Source: Planctomycetota bacterium (GTDB taxonomy: Bacteria; Planctomycetota; Planctomycetia; Pirellulales; PLA5). From it: a stretch of DNA of 64,000 bases. Location of the stretch: NCBI GenBank assembly GCA_003576845.1, contig QEVJ01000008.1:1-64000 (forward strand). The letters run 5' to 3'. Below the pieces are notes generated by a model. That model was not told the origin of the DNA. It worked only from the letters and a program-made list of their open reading frames with translations, and did no database searches. Of this stretch, positions 14,164 to 22,720 are shown in pieces (within the stretch, counting starts at the first letter, position 1; each line of letters opens with the position of its first letter). The translations under genes and the position numbers were made by a program.

Positions 14164-14539
14164 GGACGAGTGAGGAGCTTATGGCAACACATGGCGATTC
14201 GCGAACGCTGCGTCCTGAATTGTACCGAGAATCCGCAACTGGCGAATCGCGCCGGCAAAAGACACTGTAATGAATGCGCCATGAAATCGTCTCCATGGAA
14301 ATTGTCTCCATGATCCGTCTCCTGTGGGAGGCGATTAGGGGGACATTTCTAACGGTTGCTAACGACTGCGTATCGCGTGCTCAAGCCGGTTGCTGGATTG
14401 TGCTCCGTACATCCGGGATCGACGCGGGGTTCGCGACGGCCTAGAGGCGTCAGACGAACCAAACCCGCGATTGTCTGGCGGGTCGCTGTCCGGGATTGGC
14501 ATTTCCCGTTTGGGTCATTCTTCACGAAGGGGACATTCC
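14164..14539. promoter_or_regulatory. divergent intergenic region with repeated TCTCC motif
   Basis: No gene is seen. The region separates the leftward DUF1573 gene from the rightward proline-rich gene and should hold both promoters. TCTCCATG occurs at 14290-14297 and 14305-14312, with TCTCCTG at 14318-14324. These are direct repeats spaced 15 and 13 bases that could be a regulator site. No clear -35/-10 pair was identified. Confidence 0.3.
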
Positions 14540-15382
14540 ATGAGAAAGCGACTGAAGCTAACCCGCAAGAAGGAACTGGGGCTTGAATCCCTTGAGCTGC
14601 GCACGGTTTTGCAGGGCATTGGGATAGGGAATCCGTTTGACGGCATCCCGGAGCCCCCCTTCGAAACGCCGCCCGTCGACGCTCCGCCGGCGCCGCCGAC
14701 GAATGGCCGCCCCGTGATCGTGCACCCTCTCGGTGGTCCCGGCCGGCCCGACACGACGCCGCCCGATCCGCAGGTTCCGCCATTTGGCGAGCCGGCGCCG
14801 TCGGCACTGATCGTCGAGGTTCCGCCCGCGCCGCCGGAAGTAATCCCGCCGGTCGACCTGCCGGACCAGGTTCCGGACGACGTTCCGCCAGCCCCGCCGA
14901 CCAACGGTCGCCCGGTGATCGTGCATCCACTTGGCGGTCCCGGCCGGCCCGACACGACTCCGCCCGATCCACAGGTTCCGCCATTTGGCGAACCGGCGCC
15001 GTCGGCGCTAATCGTTGAGGTTCCTCCCGCGCCGCCGGAAGTAATCCCGCCGGTCGAGTTGCCGGACCAGGTTCCGGACGACGTTCCGCCGGCGCCGCCG
15101 ACCAACGGTCGCCCGGTGATCGTGCATCCGCTCGGCGGTCCTGGCCGGCCGGAAACGACGCCGCCGACACCCGTGGTTCCGCCATTCGGCGAACCGGCGC
15201 CATCGGCCGTGGTCATGCGGGCATCGCGGACGGCAAGCGCATCGTCGCTTTCGCCGCGAGCAGTTCGCGCCCGCGGCGCGGTCGATCCCGTCGCGGTGGA
15301 CGCGATTCATTCGCAGACGTCCGACGGTTCGGCATTGTCGGCCGCCCGCAACACGACCGCCCGCCGATCGCAGAGCAGATAG
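14540..15382 (+). CDS. proline-rich surface protein with 67-residue repeats
   Basis: The ATG at 14540 has AAGGGG just upstream and gives 280 residues. The first 20 (MRKRLKLTRKK, then LGLESLELRTVL) match the basic-then-LExLExR leader of planctomycete extracellular proteins. The body is three near-identical units starting at NGRPVIVHPLGGPGRP and continuing through VPPFGEPAPSALIVEVPPA, with an exact period of 67 residues (201 bases). The third unit is shortened. The tail is basic and serine-rich. The composition suggests an extended, non-enzymatic wall or spacer protein. It sits just before a CAP-domain surface protein on the same strand. Confidence 0.7.
   Translation: MRKRLKLTRKKELGLESLELRTVLQGIGIGNPFDGIPEPPFETPPVDAPPAPPTNGRPVIVHPLGGPGRPDTTPPDPQVPPFGEPAPSALIVEVPPAPPEVIPPVDLPDQVPDDVPPAPPTNGRPVIVHPLGGPGRPDTTPPDPQVPPFGEPAPSALIVEVPPAPPEVIPPVELPDQVPDDVPPAPPTNGRPVIVHPLGGPGRPETTPPTPVVPPFGEPAPSAVVMRASRTASASSLSPRAVRARGAVDPVAVDAIHSQTSDGSALSAARNTTARRSQSR
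14702..15220 (+). repeat. 201-base tandem repeats inside the proline-rich gene
   Basis: Units begin at 14702, 14903 and 15104 (each at the Asn codon of NGRPVIVHP), so the spacing is exactly 201 bases. Units one and two differ mainly at silent positions; the third is incomplete. This indicates recent duplication with the reading frame maintained. Confidence 0.85.
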
Positions 15383-15411: not shown

Positions 15412-16689
15412 ATGAGCAGCACAACCTGGTGGCTTGCTTCCCGCCGCGCCGCGTTTTCGTGGCGCGGCCTTTCTTTCGCGCTCGCGCTTTTGTTGTTGCT
15501 TCTCGGCGAGTCCGCACAGGGCCGCGAACCGACGGCCGACGAGCAGCTCATGCTCGAGATGATCAATCGGATGCGGACCCGACCGCAGCAGGAACTCGAC
15601 TTGCTGGCGAATATCAACTACGGTGCGGCGGCGACGTTTGCCTCGCCAAGTTCCGACGATCCGAACGTCGCCGCGGCGCTAACCTTCTTCAATGTCCGCC
15701 CGGATATCCTCTCGACTCAGTGGGCGGCTTTGACGCCCGTGCAGCCGCTCGCTTGGAACGGGCAGCTTGGCGTGTCTTCCGCGACGTATTCGCAGGTGAT
15801 GATCGACGTCGACCAGCAGGGCCACAACCTCGATGCGCACGGCGACGACCTCGCGGCCCGATTGATCGCCTCGAATTATCTCTTCGTCGGCGGCGGCACA
15901 GCCGGCGAAAACGTGTTCGCCTTCGCGCGATCCGTCTTCCACGGCCACGCGGCGTTCGCCATCGACTGGGGCGCGACCGCTTCGGGCATTCAGGTTCCGC
16001 CGGGGCATCGCGATCTGATCGCCAACGGCGACATGCGCGAGATTGGCATCGGGATCCTCAACGATTCCGACTCGGCGACCGCCGTTGGTCCGCTCGTGAT
16101 GACGCAGCACTTCGCGGTCGACTATACCACCGACGCGTTCCTGACCGGCGTTGCGTTCGCCGACGCGAACGGCGACGCGTTCTACGCGCCGGGCGAAGGG
16201 CTTTCGGGCCTGGCCATCGTGGCGGTCGACACGTCGAGCGGAAACCGGTTCTCAACTTTGACCTGGGGTTCCGGAGGCTACACGCTAGAGCTCGCTCCCG
16301 GCACGTATGACGTCGTTGCTTCGGGTCCGAGCGTCGGGCAATTGACGTTCCCCGGCATCGTCGTGAACAGCCAGAACATCAAGCTCGACGTGATGCCATC
16401 GTCGACGCCATTGCCGGGCGATGCCAACATGGACGGCGTTGTGGACCGAGCCGACGCGGCACTTCTCTCGCAACACCTAGGAATCGAAAGCGGCGCGCTC
16501 TGGGGCGGCGGCGATTTCGACGGCAACGGATTCGTGGATCTCCAAGACCTGGCGATTCTCAGCCGCAACCTGTCGCCCGCTTCGAGCAGTGTGCCTTCCG
16601 CCGCAGCGGTTCCGGAGGCGCCAGCGGGCAGTTTAACGTTGCTGGCGGCCTTTACGCTTGTGGGTGTGGGCATCGCGCGACGGCGGTAA
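15412..16689 (+). CDS. CAP/SCP-domain protein with dockerin and PEP-CTERM-like tail
   Basis: The 425-residue protein has a signal peptide (LSFALALLLLLLGESAQG). A CAP (SCP/PR-1-like) domain follows, starting LMLEMINRMRTRP with a later GHNLDAHGDD and NVFAFARSVFHGHAAF. A small beta domain follows (GVAFADANGDAFYAPGEGL). A dockerin-like pair of calcium loops is at about 329-384 (GDANMDGVVDRADA and GDFDGNGFVDLQDL). The C-terminus, VPEAPAGSLTLLAAFTLVGV then basic IARRR, is a PEP-CTERM-type sorting tail for exosortase processing. It is probably delivered to the cell surface. The gene starts 30 bases after the proline-rich gene and may be co-transcribed with it. Confidence 0.8.
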   Translation: MSSTTWWLASRRAAFSWRGLSFALALLLLLLGESAQGREPTADEQLMLEMINRMRTRPQQELDLLANINYGAAATFASPSSDDPNVAAALTFFNVRPDILSTQWAALTPVQPLAWNGQLGVSSATYSQVMIDVDQQGHNLDAHGDDLAARLIASNYLFVGGGTAGENVFAFARSVFHGHAAFAIDWGATASGIQVPPGHRDLIANGDMREIGIGILNDSDSATAVGPLVMTQHFAVDYTTDAFLTGVAFADANGDAFYAPGEGLSGLAIVAVDTSSGNRFSTLTWGSGGYTLELAPGTYDVVASGPSVGQLTFPGIVVNSQNIKLDVMPSSTPLPGDANMDGVVDRADAALLSQHLGIESGALWGGGDFDGNGFVDLQDLAILSRNLSPASSSVPSAAAVPEAPAGSLTLLAAFTLVGVGIARRR

Positions 16690-16743: not shown

Positions 16744-19089
16744 TTATCGGGAACGCCGCCGACCAGACGCCGAAGACTTGTCGGGCGCTGCTGGCGGAAC
16801 TGCCGTACCCATATCGACGCCAAGAACGGTATCGACGTGTTGGGGCGAAGGTCGGCGGGCGCGGGACGCCGCCAAACCCGGCGATTCATCGTGCGAGGAT
16901 CGGCGGCGACCCGGGGCGGCCTTCGCCAAGCCGGAGTTCGCCTCGGGGCCGGAGGAATCCGTCTTGGGAAGAGCAACCACGATCGCGGACGGCGCTTGCG
17001 TGCCCGTCGTCGAACCGCCTCCCGTGGTATTCGATGTCGTCAAATCCGGCAGCAACGCACGGCCCAGATTCGTAGCGACGGTGAGCAGGTCGGCGAGGTC
17101 AACGTCGCCGTCGCCGTCGAAATCGGCGAGCGACGGGAGTGTGTCGGCGAACTGGCCGAAGTCTCCGGCCACGACCGCTGCGTCGCCGCGATCGACGACG
17201 CCGCTGCCGTCGGCGTCGCCCGGCAACGGGTTCTCGGTAGGATCGACAAGACCGGGACCGACGTCGTCCGACAGAGCCGCCGCCGACAGCACATAGTCGA
17301 TCGGCAAGAACCCTTCGAGCGCGGCCGCATCGGGCTCAATGACGAACTCGAACGAGCCGGCGGGAAGCCAAACGTAATGTGTGGAGGTTGCGCCGGCTGG
17401 GGCTCGCACCGCCGCAATTGCCTGGCCGTCGGCGTCATGCATTTCCAAGCGCACCGCCGCATCCGTGGCACCGCCGTCGGGCCGCAGGTCGAAGCGATAG
17501 AGTAGCGTTCGCTCGGTATGCCACAGTTGAACGTCCCGCTGCGCCGGCGTCGCGAGCGTGCCCGAGCCGAGCGGCATCATATACGGATCTTCGCGGATGA
17601 AGTCGGTAACGAGCACGTAATTGCCGAGGCTGGAGCCGCCCGGGCCGCCGGCCGAGACGCTCAAATAGTACGCTTCGCCGAGGATCACGTCGGCCACGTC
17701 GAGCACGAGACGGCCATCCGCCTGAGGAACGGCCTGCTCGACGACCAAGTTGCCGTCTGCATCGTGCAAGGCGATCCGAAAATCGACGAGCCGGACGTCG
17801 AAGGTGTCGAGATAGACCGTCAGGCGGCGATCGCCCGTCTCCGACGCCACGATGCGATAAACGTCGATGTCTTCCGCCGCGCGAATCGCGCCCACGGCTT
17901 CGTAACGAGTGTCGGGAACGTAGCCGAACGGGGTTTCGAGCGTCGTCGCCGTCGCGAACGAATCGTTCTGGCCGACCTCTTCGTCCAAGTATCCAACAAC
18001 CGCGGGATACGATCGGGCTTGTCCGATCGCCGGCAACACAACGTTGGCCGGCGCGGGATCGGGCGCTCCACCGGGCACGGGCGCGGTCACCCCGTCGCCG
18101 CTGCGCACGCTCACCTCCAGGCGATAACCGCCGACGGCGAAAACGTCGCTTGACTTTGCCGCAACGCGGATCAGCATGTCGCCGCGGGGCGGCAGGAGCG
18201 GGACGGCAAGTTCGACGTTGTTCGCAAGCGGACCACCGGCGGCGGCCGACGCGACTTTCGTTCCGTCGCTGCGTAACACATCGACCGTGCCGACCAGGAA
18301 GCTCTCGCCCGCCGCGACGAGCCGCACGGACAACCGTCCGCCCTCGCCCAGCGCCGGAATGCGGTAATAGTCGACGTCGTCGGCGCGGTGGAGGTCGGCC
18401 GCGACCAAGGCGACGCCTGTGCCGACGTTCACGGTCGTGGCGGTCAGGTTACTGTCGTTGCCGCCGCTAGCGTCGTTCGCGTCGGGAGTTCGCTCTCCGT
18501 AGAGCGCCTGAATCGCGGCAATATCCGCCGCCGCGAGTCCGCTGCGTTCGCCGCGATAGTCCGTGTACATCACCGTATCGGGATCGTTCGTGTCGGCGAG
18601 TCCCAGCGCGTTGCCGGCTTCGTTGAGCAGCACGGAATACAGGTCGATTGCGGCGGATTGCAGCCCGGCGGCCAGCGAACTATTGAGAAACACGTCGCCC
18701 GACCAGCTTCCCGCCACGGCGCGATAGGGGACGGCGCTGGCAATCGCGCGGGCTTGCGGAAACGCGCCGAGGCGAATGTCGCCGAACCGCGGGTCGCCTT
18801 GAGCGAGTCCGGCGGCGCCGAAAGCCCGCCCCGTGTCGGGAACGAGTCCGATGTCGATGTTCGCAACGGCCGCCCACGTCTGAAACGCCCGCACGACGTC
18901 GGTTTGCCAGGCCGAAGCGGCGCGTTGGCGTCCGAGCGTGGCGAACAATTCGCTCGCGAAGAGCCCGATGCGCGTGGCGTCGGGCGCGAAGCTCAGAGTC
19001 AAGTCGCGCGGATTGGGCCACGGTCCCCCGACCGTCGCCAGCAAGGCACGGCTTTCGAGCAATTCGAGCTTCAAGCGGCGTTGTTTCAT
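16744..19089 (-). CDS. matrixin-like surface protein with inactivated zinc site and dockerin
   Basis: The 781-residue protein starts MKQRRLKLELLESRALLA, the planctomycete extracellular leader. Residues about 25-200 resemble a matrixin metalloprotease: exposed strands, then LLNEAGNALGLAD at about 154-166 and the Met-turn region DTVMY. The zinc motif HExxHxxGxxH reads NExxNxxGxxD, so all three histidines are replaced while Glu157 and Gly163 remain. Beta-sandwich pre-peptidase-like domains follow, then a dockerin pair at about 625-690 (GDADGSGVVDRGDA and DFDGDGDVDLADL). It starts 10 bases after the TPR kinase ends, so it is very likely in that operon. It is probably a non-catalytic binding protein. 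Confidence 0.75.
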   Translation of the reverse strand: MKQRRLKLELLESRALLATVGGPWPNPRDLTLSFAPDATRIGLFASELFATLGRQRAASAWQTDVVRAFQTWAAVANIDIGLVPDTGRAFGAAGLAQGDPRFGDIRLGAFPQARAIASAVPYRAVAGSWSGDVFLNSSLAAGLQSAAIDLYSVLLNEAGNALGLADTNDPDTVMYTDYRGERSGLAAADIAAIQALYGERTPDANDASGGNDSNLTATTVNVGTGVALVAADLHRADDVDYYRIPALGEGGRLSVRLVAAGESFLVGTVDVLRSDGTKVASAAAGGPLANNVELAVPLLPPRGDMLIRVAAKSSDVFAVGGYRLEVSVRSGDGVTAPVPGGAPDPAPANVVLPAIGQARSYPAVVGYLDEEVGQNDSFATATTLETPFGYVPDTRYEAVGAIRAAEDIDVYRIVASETGDRRLTVYLDTFDVRLVDFRIALHDADGNLVVEQAVPQADGRLVLDVADVILGEAYYLSVSAGGPGGSSLGNYVLVTDFIREDPYMMPLGSGTLATPAQRDVQLWHTERTLLYRFDLRPDGGATDAAVRLEMHDADGQAIAAVRAPAGATSTHYVWLPAGSFEFVIEPDAAALEGFLPIDYVLSAAALSDDVGPGLVDPTENPLPGDADGSGVVDRGDAAVVAGDFGQFADTLPSLADFDGDGDVDLADLLTVATNLGRALLPDLTTSNTTGGGSTTGTQAPSAIVVALPKTDSSGPEANSGLAKAAPGRRRSSHDESPGLAASRARRPSPQHVDTVLGVDMGTAVPPAAPDKSSASGRRRSR

Positions 19090-19099
19090 AGCCGGCGCC

Positions 19100-22000
19100 T
19101 CACTTTGACTTCGCCGTCGACGGTGGGGCGGCTACGAGCCGGGAAAAATCGCGATGCGTTCGAATCGGCGCCAGGTCCGGATCGCGGCGGGCAAGCTCGC
19201 GATCGAAGCCCAGGTGGACCGCAGCAAATAGCAGGCCGATCGCTTGCTCGGCATCGGCGCCGACGGTTCGCGACGCGAGCGAGTAGATGCACGCGGCCTG
19301 GTAATGGGCCTCCGGCCCGCGATCGAGCTTCAAACCGAGCCGCGCGTCGGCCAGCGCCGCTTCGCGGTCGCCTTCGCGGGCATACAGCACGCCGCGCCCC
19401 AGCACGGCCGGGGCGCAATCGGGATAGAACTCGATCGCCCGCGACAAGGCGTCGATCGCCCGCCGCGGCTCCCGCAAGTACTCGGCCAACACGTGGGCGC
19501 TGTCCCGCAATGCTTCGAGCGAGCGCGGATCGTGGCGGAGCGCCGCTTCGAACGCGGCCAGCGCGTTGCGTGGTTCGGCGGGCAGCAAATACACGCCGCG
19601 GGCGACCCAACCCTCCGCGTCCTGCGGATCGCGCGACATGGCCGTTCGTTCGTCGCGGGCCGCGAGATCGGCGTGTCCCGCCCGACGATGCATCCGCGCT
19701 CGCAAGTGGTAGAAACGGGTCCGTTCCGGCTCCAAAGCAATCGCCCGGTCGAGATCACCGATCGCCGCGTCCAGGTCGCCCAATTGATGATGGGCGAGGG
19801 CGCGATTGACCAGTGCCGCCGTTGCCGTCGGCGGCGCGTCGTCGAGTTCGAGCGCCCTGTCGAAGTCGGCCTTTGCCGCGCGGTATTGTTGCTGTCGAGA
19901 TCGCGCGACCCCGCGTTGCACGTACGCCGGCGCCAAATCGGGCTTGAGCACGACGCAGGCCGTGTAGCAGGCGACGGCCTCGGCGTTGTGACGTTGCGCT
20001 TCTTCGGCGCGTCCGCGCAGCATCCAATACCGCACTTGCTGGGGTTGTTGCGAAGTCGCGGACGTCAGCAACTCGACTGCGGCCGAAAACCGTCCCTGAG
20101 CGTATTCCGATCGCGCGCGGCGGTAAATCGCGTGGGTCGAATCGCCGGTCGAGGTCGCGTCGTCGGTGTTTCCTGAGGGCGGAACCGTGTCTGCCACCGG
20201 GGTTTTCGCAGTGGCACCTTCGGCGGCAAGGGCCGCGCGAAGCTCGGCCAATTCTTTGCTCAACAACGCGCGATCCTCGTCGCCGAGGAGTGCCGCGTCG
20301 CCACCGAGGTCATGTTTGCCGCCAGCGATCGTTCCCGGTTGGTACGTCGCGAGCGCCTGCAACGCCAATTCGCGCCCGCGGCGCCGATCGGGCGAACTCG
20401 GATCGGCGGTCGTTAGCAGGAACTGAGCATGGAGACTATCGTCGATGAACGACGCGAGGGCCTCGCGGGCTCGATTCTGCGCGATGCTGCGCTCCGCGCT
20501 CCACCAGAACGCGGCGACGACGGCGATCGCCACCGCGGCAGCACAAGCCACCGCCGTCGCGCCCGTCGCACGAGGATGCCGCCGCCGCCATTTTCGCAAG
20601 CGTTCGCGGAAGGACGGATTGCCGGCATGCCACAGCGGCAGGTCCTCGAGTTGCCGCCGCAGGTCTTCGGCTAGGTCGGCGGCCGAGACATACCGCTCGG
20701 CCGGTTCGACCGCCAGGCACTTCGCGACAATGGCCCTCACCGCTGGCGAAACGCCGCATTTCGCGAGCGCCGCGGGCGAAGGCCCCGCCGCATTCGCCGC
20801 GAGCGCCCGGTGCAATGCATCATCGGTCGCTCCCGCGCCGGTGTCGAACGGCGTCTCGCCCGTCAACATTTCATACATCACGACGCCGAGCGAATAGACA
20901 TCGGCAGCCGGTCCGACGGCGATGCGCTCGCCGCGGAGGGCGCGGATTTGCTCCGGCGCCATATAGGGCAGCGTTCCGCCCAGTACGACGGACGCCGTGT
21001 CTTCGCCGGCCCCGCGCCATCCCGCGAGGTTGAAGTCGAGCAGCATCGGCTCGCCGTCGTCGCGGAGCAGGATGTTCGCCGGCTTGAGGTCGCGATGCAA
21101 CACGCCGCGCTCGTGAGCGTGCTGCAAGCCCGCGGCCAAACGCGAACACAACCACAGGACGGCCTCGACGTACGAGTAGCGTTCGAGGCGTTGCGAACCG
21201 CCCGGTGGGCCGATTCGGCCGACATTCTGCGCGCTGTCCGGAGCGAGAAGAGCATCGGTCAGCGACGCGGCCGTGGAAGGCGCAACCGACGTGCGCGCGG
21301 ACGTCGCAAAATTGCCGATTGTGCTGACGAGTTCTTCGCCCGATTTCGGCAACTGTCCGCCGGACTTCGACGCGCCTAGCACGGCCGCGAGCGTCGCGCC
21401 GCCAAAATACGGCATGCACAGGGCATGGAGCGAACCGCGGCGATGTTGCGAATAGATCGGAACGATGTTCGTATGTTGAAGCTGGGCGATCGCCTGGGCC
21501 TCGCCGGGAAAGCGATCCGAAAGCTTCAGCACGACTTGCCGGTTCGCCAATTCCGCCTGCCGTGCGAGAAACACGCGGGCAAATGCGCCGCGGCCTAATT
21601 CAGCGAGCAACTCGAATCCCGCGAAGAATTGTCCGGCACAGGGCCACTTCATCGCGGCGTCGTCGGAGACTTGCGTCAAGCAGACGTCGCTGCCGACGGC
21701 GGAGACTCGGCAGGACGAAAACGCGCCGGCGAGATGCGATTCCCGGTTGCCGCTTTCCACCGGCCATTCTCCGACGTCGATCCCAAACCGCGCGGCGTAG
21801 TCCGCGGGCGTTGCCGCCTCGCCGCAGAGCACGCGTTGGCGATATTCCTCGAACGCGATGGAAGCGAGCGCTTCCGGCGACGCGGCAATCTCCGGATACC
21901 GCCGCAGAATCGCCTCGACCCGCGGCCTCAAGCCCGAACGCCAGCCGTGCTCCAGGTCGATCCGCACGATCTCGACGAGCACGGCGAGAAACGCTTCGTG

Positions 22001-22120
22001 GCCACGCGGCGGGAGGAAGTCCTCCAGGTCGCACGACTCGTTCGCGACGAGCGCCGATTCGTACGCGTCGACCCAATCGGCGATCCGGCGACGCGGCGGT
22101 GTGGCGGATGCGTGGATCAT
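19100..22120 (-). CDS. transmembrane Ser/Thr kinase with TPR repeats
   Basis: From the ATG at 22120 the protein is 1006 residues; an in-frame TTG at 22147 would add nine. An N-terminal helical part of about 150 residues is typical of planctomycete kinases of this type. The kinase has a GRGAFA glycine loop, the lysine in VVLKLS (about 199), catalytic HRDLKPAN (342-349) and MAPEQ. DFG is changed to DFN (362-364). A Ser/Ala-rich insert of about 60 residues (250-311) sits between the hinge and the catalytic loop. One membrane helix (519-541) and a large C-terminal region of TPR-like helices (about 660-950) follow. An ECF sigma factor lies 45 bases upstream and the matrixin-like gene 10 bases downstream. 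Confidence 0.85.
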   Translation of the reverse strand: MIHASATPPRRRIADWVDAYESALVANESCDLEDFLPPRGHEAFLAVLVEIVRIDLEHGWRSGLRPRVEAILRRYPEIAASPEALASIAFEEYRQRVLCGEAATPADYAARFGIDVGEWPVESGNRESHLAGAFSSCRVSAVGSDVCLTQVSDDAAMKWPCAGQFFAGFELLAELGRGAFARVFLARQAELANRQVVLKLSDRFPGEAQAIAQLQHTNIVPIYSQHRRGSLHALCMPYFGGATLAAVLGASKSGGQLPKSGEELVSTIGNFATSARTSVAPSTAASLTDALLAPDSAQNVGRIGPPGGSQRLERYSYVEAVLWLCSRLAAGLQHAHERGVLHRDLKPANILLRDDGEPMLLDFNLAGWRGAGEDTASVVLGGTLPYMAPEQIRALRGERIAVGPAADVYSLGVVMYEMLTGETPFDTGAGATDDALHRALAANAAGPSPAALAKCGVSPAVRAIVAKCLAVEPAERYVSAADLAEDLRRQLEDLPLWHAGNPSFRERLRKWRRRHPRATGATAVACAAAVAIAVVAAFWWSAERSIAQNRAREALASFIDDSLHAQFLLTTADPSSPDRRRGRELALQALATYQPGTIAGGKHDLGGDAALLGDEDRALLSKELAELRAALAAEGATAKTPVADTVPPSGNTDDATSTGDSTHAIYRRARSEYAQGRFSAAVELLTSATSQQPQQVRYWMLRGRAEEAQRHNAEAVACYTACVVLKPDLAPAYVQRGVARSRQQQYRAAKADFDRALELDDAPPTATAALVNRALAHHQLGDLDAAIGDLDRAIALEPERTRFYHLRARMHRRAGHADLAARDERTAMSRDPQDAEGWVARGVYLLPAEPRNALAAFEAALRHDPRSLEALRDSAHVLAEYLREPRRAIDALSRAIEFYPDCAPAVLGRGVLYAREGDREAALADARLGLKLDRGPEAHYQAACIYSLASRTVGADAEQAIGLLFAAVHLGFDRELARRDPDLAPIRTHRDFSRLVAAPPSTAKSK

Positions 22121-22165
22121 GGCCCCGTTGTCGATTCGTCGCAGCAACGTATTGCGTCCGATCGC

Positions 22166-22720
22166 CTATTCCATTGCGCGGGTAAGGTCACTGCGAAATT
22201 CTTGCAACACGCGTTCGACCGTGCGCCGCGAACGCGCAACGCGGATGGCGATCTGTTCGATCTCGTATCCCTCGATGCGTAACTCGACGATCCGACGTTC
22301 GATTTCGCTGTAATCCAGTACGATTTCGTCGATCGACATCTTCAACTCAGAGGCCAACTGCTCGGCGACGTTCGTTGCCGCGTCGACGACGGCCACGGTC
22401 TTGCGGGCGTCGCGTTTGGCGGCCAGATGCTTGGCGCGGACGTGGTTCAGTTTGTGGCGCGTGATCGCCGAGAGCAACTGCCAGAGTTCGCCGCTGGGGG
22501 GCGCTCGATACAACCCCGCTCGGGCCTGGCGGAAGAAGCTGCCCAGGGCCGACTGCACGATGTCCTCGACGTCGACGCGCGCCGCCAGCGCCGGATCGAG
22601 GCGTTTCTTCGCCAGCCCGCGCAGCCGCCGCGAGTAGCGGTCGTGCAACTCCGCCGCGGCGTTCGCATCGCCGGTGCGAAAGCGTCGCATCAGGGATTGG
22701 TCGCTCGGTTGCGAGGCCAT
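22166..22720 (-). CDS. ECF-type RNA polymerase sigma factor
   Basis: The 184-residue protein has a region 2 with GDANAAAELHDRYSRRLRGL, then VDVEDIVQSALGSFFRQ. A region 4 helix-turn-helix lies near the C-terminus (IERRIVELRIEGYEIEQIA then SRRTVERVLQEF). The length and layout fit the extracytoplasmic-function group. Planctomycetes have ECF subgroups encoded beside Ser/Thr kinases, and here the kinase gene follows on the same strand. The sigma factor is therefore likely controlled by, or in the same pathway as, that kinase. No separate anti-sigma factor is seen. Confidence 0.85.
   Translation of the reverse strand: MASQPSDQSLMRRFRTGDANAAAELHDRYSRRLRGLAKKRLDPALAARVDVEDIVQSALGSFFRQARAGLYRAPPSGELWQLLSAITRHKLNHVRAKHLAAKRDARKTVAVVDAATNVAEQLASELKMSIDEIVLDYSEIERRIVELRIEGYEIEQIAIRVARSRRTVERVLQEFRSDLTRAME

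Follow-up and report, generated by a model that had tools for sequence, protein, structure and literature searches.

A matrixin-like exported protein with all three zinc histidines replaced, encoded beside an ECF sigma factor and a Ser/Thr kinase gene in a planctomycete

The window, that is, the whole stretch of 64,000 nucleotides of planctomycete DNA analysed here, contains a gene for a matrixin-like protein in which every histidine of the zinc site is replaced, and it thereby raises the question of whether such a protein is a protease with a dead site, the product of an error, or the bearer of a site retained for another task. The reading that we favour, to which we give a probability of roughly 60%, is that of an exported matrixin-fold protein that is no longer a classical zinc protease. 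It would belong to a planctomycete family often encoded by the third gene of an ECF sigma factor/transmembrane kinase/matrixin operon. The zinc site of this family has changed repeatedly, and in a coupled manner, between His/His/His and His/Asn/Asp; in the window protein, it has gone on to Asn/Asn/Asp, with the Glu being kept as in every member seen.

The window gene and its predicted fold

The features of the locus are compiled in Table 1. Loss of the zinc histidines with Glu157, Gly163 and the Met-turn left intact, as claimed by the original prediction, was confirmed on the complete reading frame. The motif read from it is LLNEAGNALGLADTNDPDTVMY, with residues 156–166 being NEAGNALGLAD, followed by TNDPDTVMY; the site of active proteases, HExxHxxGxxH, is absent, its histidine positions being occupied by Asn156, Asn160 and Asp166, and Glu157, Gly163 and Met174 of the Met-turn are retained. 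The site codons are AAC, GAA, AAC and GAC, in agreement with the AAC and GAC reported earlier, but the accompanying argument that these lie one base from histidine codons is uninformative, as the same is true of every Asn and Asp codon. Since no canonical zinc ligand is left, the window protein has likely lost zinc and classical proteolysis, as far as can be judged from its sequence.

Table 1. Features of the matrixin-like gene and of the two adjoining genes (window coordinates).
Feature	Position	Strand	Remarks
Matrixin-like exported protein, 781 aa	16744..19089	(-)	ATG at 19089, stop at 16744
Planctomycete extracellular signature, N-terminal, residues 1–18	19036..19089	(-)	Pfam Planc_extracel 14.8 bits, below cut-off 25.5
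Matrixin-fold domain, residues 1–206	18472..19089	(-)	Pfam and predicted model
NExxNxxGxxD site, residues 156–166, replacing HExxHxxGxxH	18592..18624	(-)	Sequence and codons
Met174 of the Met-turn, retained	18568..18570	(-)	
Beta-sandwich region (predicted), C-terminal, residues 201–640	17170..18489	(-)	
Candidate dockerin-type repeat, residues 623–675	17065..17223	(-)	Pfam 21.4 bits, slightly under cut-off 22.9
Ser/Thr kinase with TPR tail	19100..22147	(-)	Ends 10 bases before the matrixin gene; TTG start according to the ORF tool
ECF-type sigma factor, acidic DVED kept	22166..22720	(-)	Ends 18 bases before the kinase ORF

The Pfam Peptidase_M10 profile matched residues 144–198 with 32.6 bits, above its cut-off of 24, and no NCBIfam profile matched the protein at E 0.01. 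There is no propeptide ahead of the catalytic domain, and E12 and R14 of the N-terminal signature are nearly invariant in a 63-row alignment. An AlphaFold2 model of residues 1–206, computed with 62 relatives, reached a mean pLDDT of 91.6 and a pTM of 0.86. When compared by VIA-align, this model matched MMP-1 (1hfc) with a Z-score of 19.9 (1.8 Å over 145 residues, 24% identity) and karilysin (2xs4) with a Z-score of 19.4, and the profile of the 63-row alignment matched MMP sequences from the PDB at E 4.9e-19. The matrixin fold is thus predicted to be intact despite the loss of the zinc histidines. Residues 201–640 were modelled as beta-sandwiches (mean pLDDT 80.5, pTM 0.50), and the hits of a fold search with the C-terminal region were generic beta-sandwiches (query TM-scores 0.15–0.22), including the collagen-binding tandem of ColG (5iku). 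Among the C-terminal regions of 33 family members, Pfam PPC was found in eight and Por_Secre_tail in nine, but no Pfam domain matched that of the window protein.

Site states and their history in the family

Relatives were collected from four overlapping genome samples and from a scan of named genomes, of which 80 loci were kept. In the four samples, matches were obtained in 16 of 57 relatives at E 1e-3, in 56 of 396 genomes of the order at 1e-15, in 132 of 397 genomes of the class at 1e-30 (with 30 loci and 100 further ones taken among the matches listed) and in 20 of 95 genomes of the family of G510 at 1e-55. Filtering by score, length and occupancy of the site columns, together with the discarding of substrings, left 216 of the 236 distinct domain sequences, and clustering at 90% left 196. 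Site states were taken from the profile alignment and the motif spacing; MAFFT misplaced the third site in eight rows.

With the site abbreviated to its five characteristic letters (HEHGH for HExxHxxGxxH), the common states among the 216 sequences were HEHGH (89), HENGD (44), HEHGD (17), HEHGE (15), QEHGN (13) and HEHGG (11), followed by HEHGN (5), HELGE (4), HEHGS (4), NENGD (3), QEHGH (3), HEHGP (2) and six singletons; these frequencies are biased toward the Asn and Gln types, as five Asn-type sequences and one Gln-type sequence made up the seed of the search profile. The position of Glu157 was Glu in all 216. Asn at site 2 was invariably paired with Asp at site 3 (47/47), Leu at site 2 occurred only with Glu at site 3 (5/5), and Gln at site 1 was accompanied by Asn at site 3 in 14 of 18 cases. 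A second and a third coupled state were observed in this way, QExxHxxGxxN (13 sequences) and HExxLxxGxxE (four, plus one HELSE), with L089, L091, L104, L207 and L287 as examples. One HELGE member, L097, lies on a contig labelled Spartobacteria (Verrucomicrobiota) and is either from outside the Planctomycetes or mis-binned.

The triple state NENGD was borne by the window protein and by two sequences of family f23, L232 (genome G510) and L257 (G637), which read LNEAGNIFGLADTNDP where the window protein reads LNEAGNALGLADTNDP; their domains are 49% and 48% identical to that of the window, respectively, and both have Arg at the Met-turn place. One of the HENGD sequences, L114, belongs to a named strain, Bythopirellula polymerisocia Pla144. 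Alignment with orthologues, which had been proposed as the means of deciding between a fixed Asn/Asn/Asp and intact histidines, gave a mixed answer. The single other genome sampled from the window's family contained no orthologue, only intact-site members at 43% and 38% identity, and the paralogues in the window genome are intact as well; the top-scoring relative, L022 (50% identity), already reads HEAGNILGLAD, i.e., HExxNxxGxxD, and the nearest row by plain identity over the tree columns, L082 (52%), is of the form HExxHxxGxxL.

The history of the site was followed on a quick tree of the 196 sequences, from which the site columns had been removed, and on a careful tree restricted to the operon-type clade, for which 76 of its 153 rows were picked by identity, the long row L185 being omitted. 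HENGD requires five changes, of which at least three are forced by starred branches in the quick tree and all five in the careful tree. A single origin of the Asn/Asp state was rejected on the latter tree, on which the 17 Asn-type rows could not be placed in a single clade (delta lnL 131, p-AU 4.9e-5). Since the Asn-type rows do not form one clade, the Asn/Asp pair evidently arose or flipped repeatedly, at the level of the sequences compared. The window protein lies within a starred clade of nine rows (99/91), all of which have Asn and Asp at sites 2 and 3 and of which the others are HENGD; given this position, its change at site 1 most likely came after those at sites 2 and 3. For NENGD, two changes are forced by starred branches in the careful tree, yet a single origin was not rejected (p-AU 0.431) and the placement of L232 is poorly supported (72/35). 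These results did not bear out the earlier view of the change as recent-looking, as the whole nine-row clade carries Asn/Asp and the triple state is also present in a second family. At site 3, 24 changes between His and non-His were counted on the tree, with D, E, G, N, S, P, L and T as the alternative states. A phylogeny-aware test of the coupling between Asn at site 2 and Asp at site 3 yielded three starred independent pairs, with a mean of 2.8 in the same direction and none in the opposite one, which is too few for significance.

Nested within a group of HExxNxxGxxD proteins, one sequence (L065; G110:C69:6499-7119) carries an intact HEHGH and groups with L038 at 98/96. It differs from the surrounding Asn-type rows at sites 2 and 3 together, and reversal, lateral exchange and separate gains are possible origins of its state.

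Conservation around the replaced histidines was also analysed. Six columns of the 63-row alignment are invariant, Glu157 among them, and the Glu was kept in each of four site classes (42/42 in the Asn-type, 83/83, 51/51 and 15/15). This constancy spans a summed branch length of 15.7 changes per column in the pure Asn-type groups, whose lowest pairwise identity is 29%. Among close Asn-type pairs, dN/dS ranged from 0.037 to 0.187 in the 15 of 25 listed pairs in which dS was estimable, with dS above 1 in several, and the value for L232/L257, the other two NENGD genes, was 0.167; at sequence level, these relatives are under purifying selection. A site in decay should drift, which the Asn-type site, with the exception of the Met-turn, does not; it thus appears to be a retained, selected site. 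No fixed His, Cys or acidic residue other than site 3, which could act as a substitute metal ligand, was present among the 18 columns differing most between Asn-type and intact rows, the nearest approach being a Glu at residue 63 in 23 of 42 Asn-type rows.

The sigma factor, kinase and matrixin gene set

In the window, the sigma factor gene adjoins a Ser/Thr kinase gene, the arrangement by which STPK-linked ECF systems are recognised. The kinase has a hydrophobic stretch (residues 529–547) between the kinase domain and the TPR repeats, and in planctomycete kinases of this architecture the TPR part is predicted to be mostly periplasmic, according to PMC11032199. The window kinase reads DFN instead of DFG, as do 101 of the 107 adjacent kinases read, with the Lys being kept in 95/95; at Asn-type loci, HGD, HSD or HND frequently takes the place of HRD (18/35).

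Upstream regions were scanned at the 181 of 216 loci with at least 2 kb of upstream sequence, 102 of which had at least 4.5 kb; the window locus is too short and stands outside these counts. At the 4.5 kb threshold, 25 of 30 Asn-type loci and 14 of 38 intact ones showed the sigma–kinase–matrixin order, as did 8/22 third-site-only, 4/10 Gln-type and 1/2 Leu-type loci. At the two other NENGD loci (L345, L346), a kinase gene was present and no sigma factor gene was detected in about 6 kb, and three HENGD loci of family f21 (L383–L385) had no adjacent kinase. Two clades make up the quick tree, a larger one of 153 rows, with an adjacent kinase at 97 of 131 testable loci, and a smaller one of 43, with such a kinase at 1 of 33. 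All Asn-type rows belong to the larger clade, in which the operon was found in 13/21 intact and 23/27 Asn-type members; hence, it is the setting usual in this clade rather than something that marks the lost site, and the link between the two may be one of ancestry alone. The operon as a cause of zinc-site loss was likewise unsupported, given that intact members carry it too. Moreover, the window genome itself contains three such sets, the window's own and two with an intact-site matrixin (C161, C162).

In EcfP-type sigma factors, the acidic DAED is missing and phosphorylation restores the charge, as described in PMC8103513. A switch of this kind was not supported here: the window sigma factor reads DVED, and among 55 sigma factors of in-order operons the motif starts with Asp or Glu in 51 and ends with Asp in all 55.

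Competing readings and relation to known systems

Three other explanations were weighed against the favoured one. On the first of these, the protein is a plain pseudoprotease whose dead site is merely tolerated and whose domain serves as a structural or adhesive scaffold. The lability of site 3 across the family, with its 24 changes, speaks in its favour, and so does the frequent loss of the Met-turn Met, which is replaced by Leu in 18 and Arg in two of the 44 HENGD sequences and by Arg in two of the three NENGD ones. Decay, however, would not be expected to lead several lineages to an identical pair, nor does it fit a Glu present in 216/216 sequences and an Asn160 that never occurs without Asp166; we therefore regard this explanation as rather unlikely, albeit one to be taken seriously. 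An error of sequencing or assembly, or a recent private mutation, is extremely improbable. Although the genome is a draft of 289 contigs and the only other sampled genome of its family lacks an orthologue, the triple state was found in two further genomes and the Asn/Asp double in 44 other distinct sequences, the reading frame is open over 781 codons, and the relatives are under purifying selection.

A hydrolase with a changed metal would keep the Glu as its base and use His/Asn/Asp or Asn/Asn/Asp, together with the Glu, to hold calcium, magnesium, manganese or iron. The all-oxygen or mixed ligand set, the invariant Glu and the coupled replacement, as well as the further coupled sets of Leu with Glu and of Gln with Asn, are in line with this idea, but no precedent for HEXXN, NEXXN or HEXXNXXGXXD was found in the open-licence literature and the predicted structure model contains no metal, and we consider it improbable. 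The preferred reading, by contrast with decay, is of a site that looks re-purposed rather than freshly broken, with an old, repeated and tightly conserved pattern. The intact predicted fold, the purifying selection and the beta-sandwich tail agree with the original prediction of a pseudoprotease used for binding, which, however, overlooks the invariant Glu, the Asn–Asp coupling and the sigma/kinase operon.

Under the favoured reading, the sigma factor, kinase and matrixin genes would form one transcript, which may be driven by its own sigma factor, and the kinase would sense an outside signal through its TPR part and control the sigma factor. The exported matrixin-fold protein could act as a co-sensor or binding partner, with the outer TPR segment of the kinase as one possible contact, or as a secreted output. 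The Asn-type protein might then bind rather than cut, or use a zinc-independent site, the kept Glu-Asn-Asp constellation being still functional and holding a metal with a preference for oxygen, a peptide or some other ligand. As a bolder and, in our view, doubtful extension, Planctomycetes may have evolved several times a second working metzincin site, Asn/Asp and finally Asn/Asn/Asp around the invariant Glu, with another metal or a bound ligand instead of zinc, built into a three-gene sigma/kinase/exported-matrixin unit in which zinc and non-zinc modules are interchangeable. If the favoured reading is right, a single bacterial family would provide a natural series leading from an intact to a fully replaced zinc site; the transitions along it would be repeated ones, and one genome would contain matching gene sets. 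Three questions would then become testable: how a protease turns into a module for binding or signalling, whether a change in one metal ligand requires a change in another, and which role the third gene plays in planctomycete sigma/kinase operons.

With regard to known systems, inactive ADAM proteases keep the metzincin fold with a broken zinc site and are used for binding, and they often lose the Glu too, a loss never seen in the 216 sequences of this matrixin family. Matrixins and MMPs of family M10, such as MMP-1 and karilysin, share with the window protein the predicted fold, the Glu, the Gly and the Met-turn Met, whereas the window protein has its three zinc histidines replaced, lacks a propeptide, and carries predicted C-terminal beta-sandwiches and a putative dockerin-like repeat. 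Asp-zincins have HEXXHXXGXXD, with homologues in which the third ligand is replaced, often by Glu (PMC3890501). Asp at the third ligand position is common to them and the window protein, but the Asn-type of this family also lacks the second His and the window protein the first, so that HEXXHXXGXXD is not matched. As to the gene set, EcfP/PknT (PMC8103513) and EcfK/PknS (PMC13147305) are described as STPK-regulated ECF sigma systems with the sigma factor gene beside a Ser/Thr kinase gene; here, in contrast, the motif of the sigma factors at the place of DAED has stayed acidic, and the set includes a third gene, for an exported protein of matrixin type. In the open-licence literature, no paper was found that contained HEXXN, NEXXN or HEXXNXXGXXD as a word or that combined planctomycetes, matrixin and dockerin, nor, as far as titles and the beginnings of abstracts reveal, one that had the matrixin family or the HEXXN site as its topic. 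The fold and the sigma/kinase pairing are already known, and no account was found of zinc ligands being replaced repeatedly and in a coupled manner around an invariant Glu, or of the position of the third gene.

Two observations concern the neighbouring sequence. A CAP-domain-like protein with a dockerin repeat, its CAP match being slightly under the Pfam cut-off, is encoded at 15412–16689, convergent with the matrixin gene. Finally, a tandem repeat at 14677–15207, with 2.6 copies of a 201-base unit, lies inside a Pro-rich ORF at 14390–15382(+).
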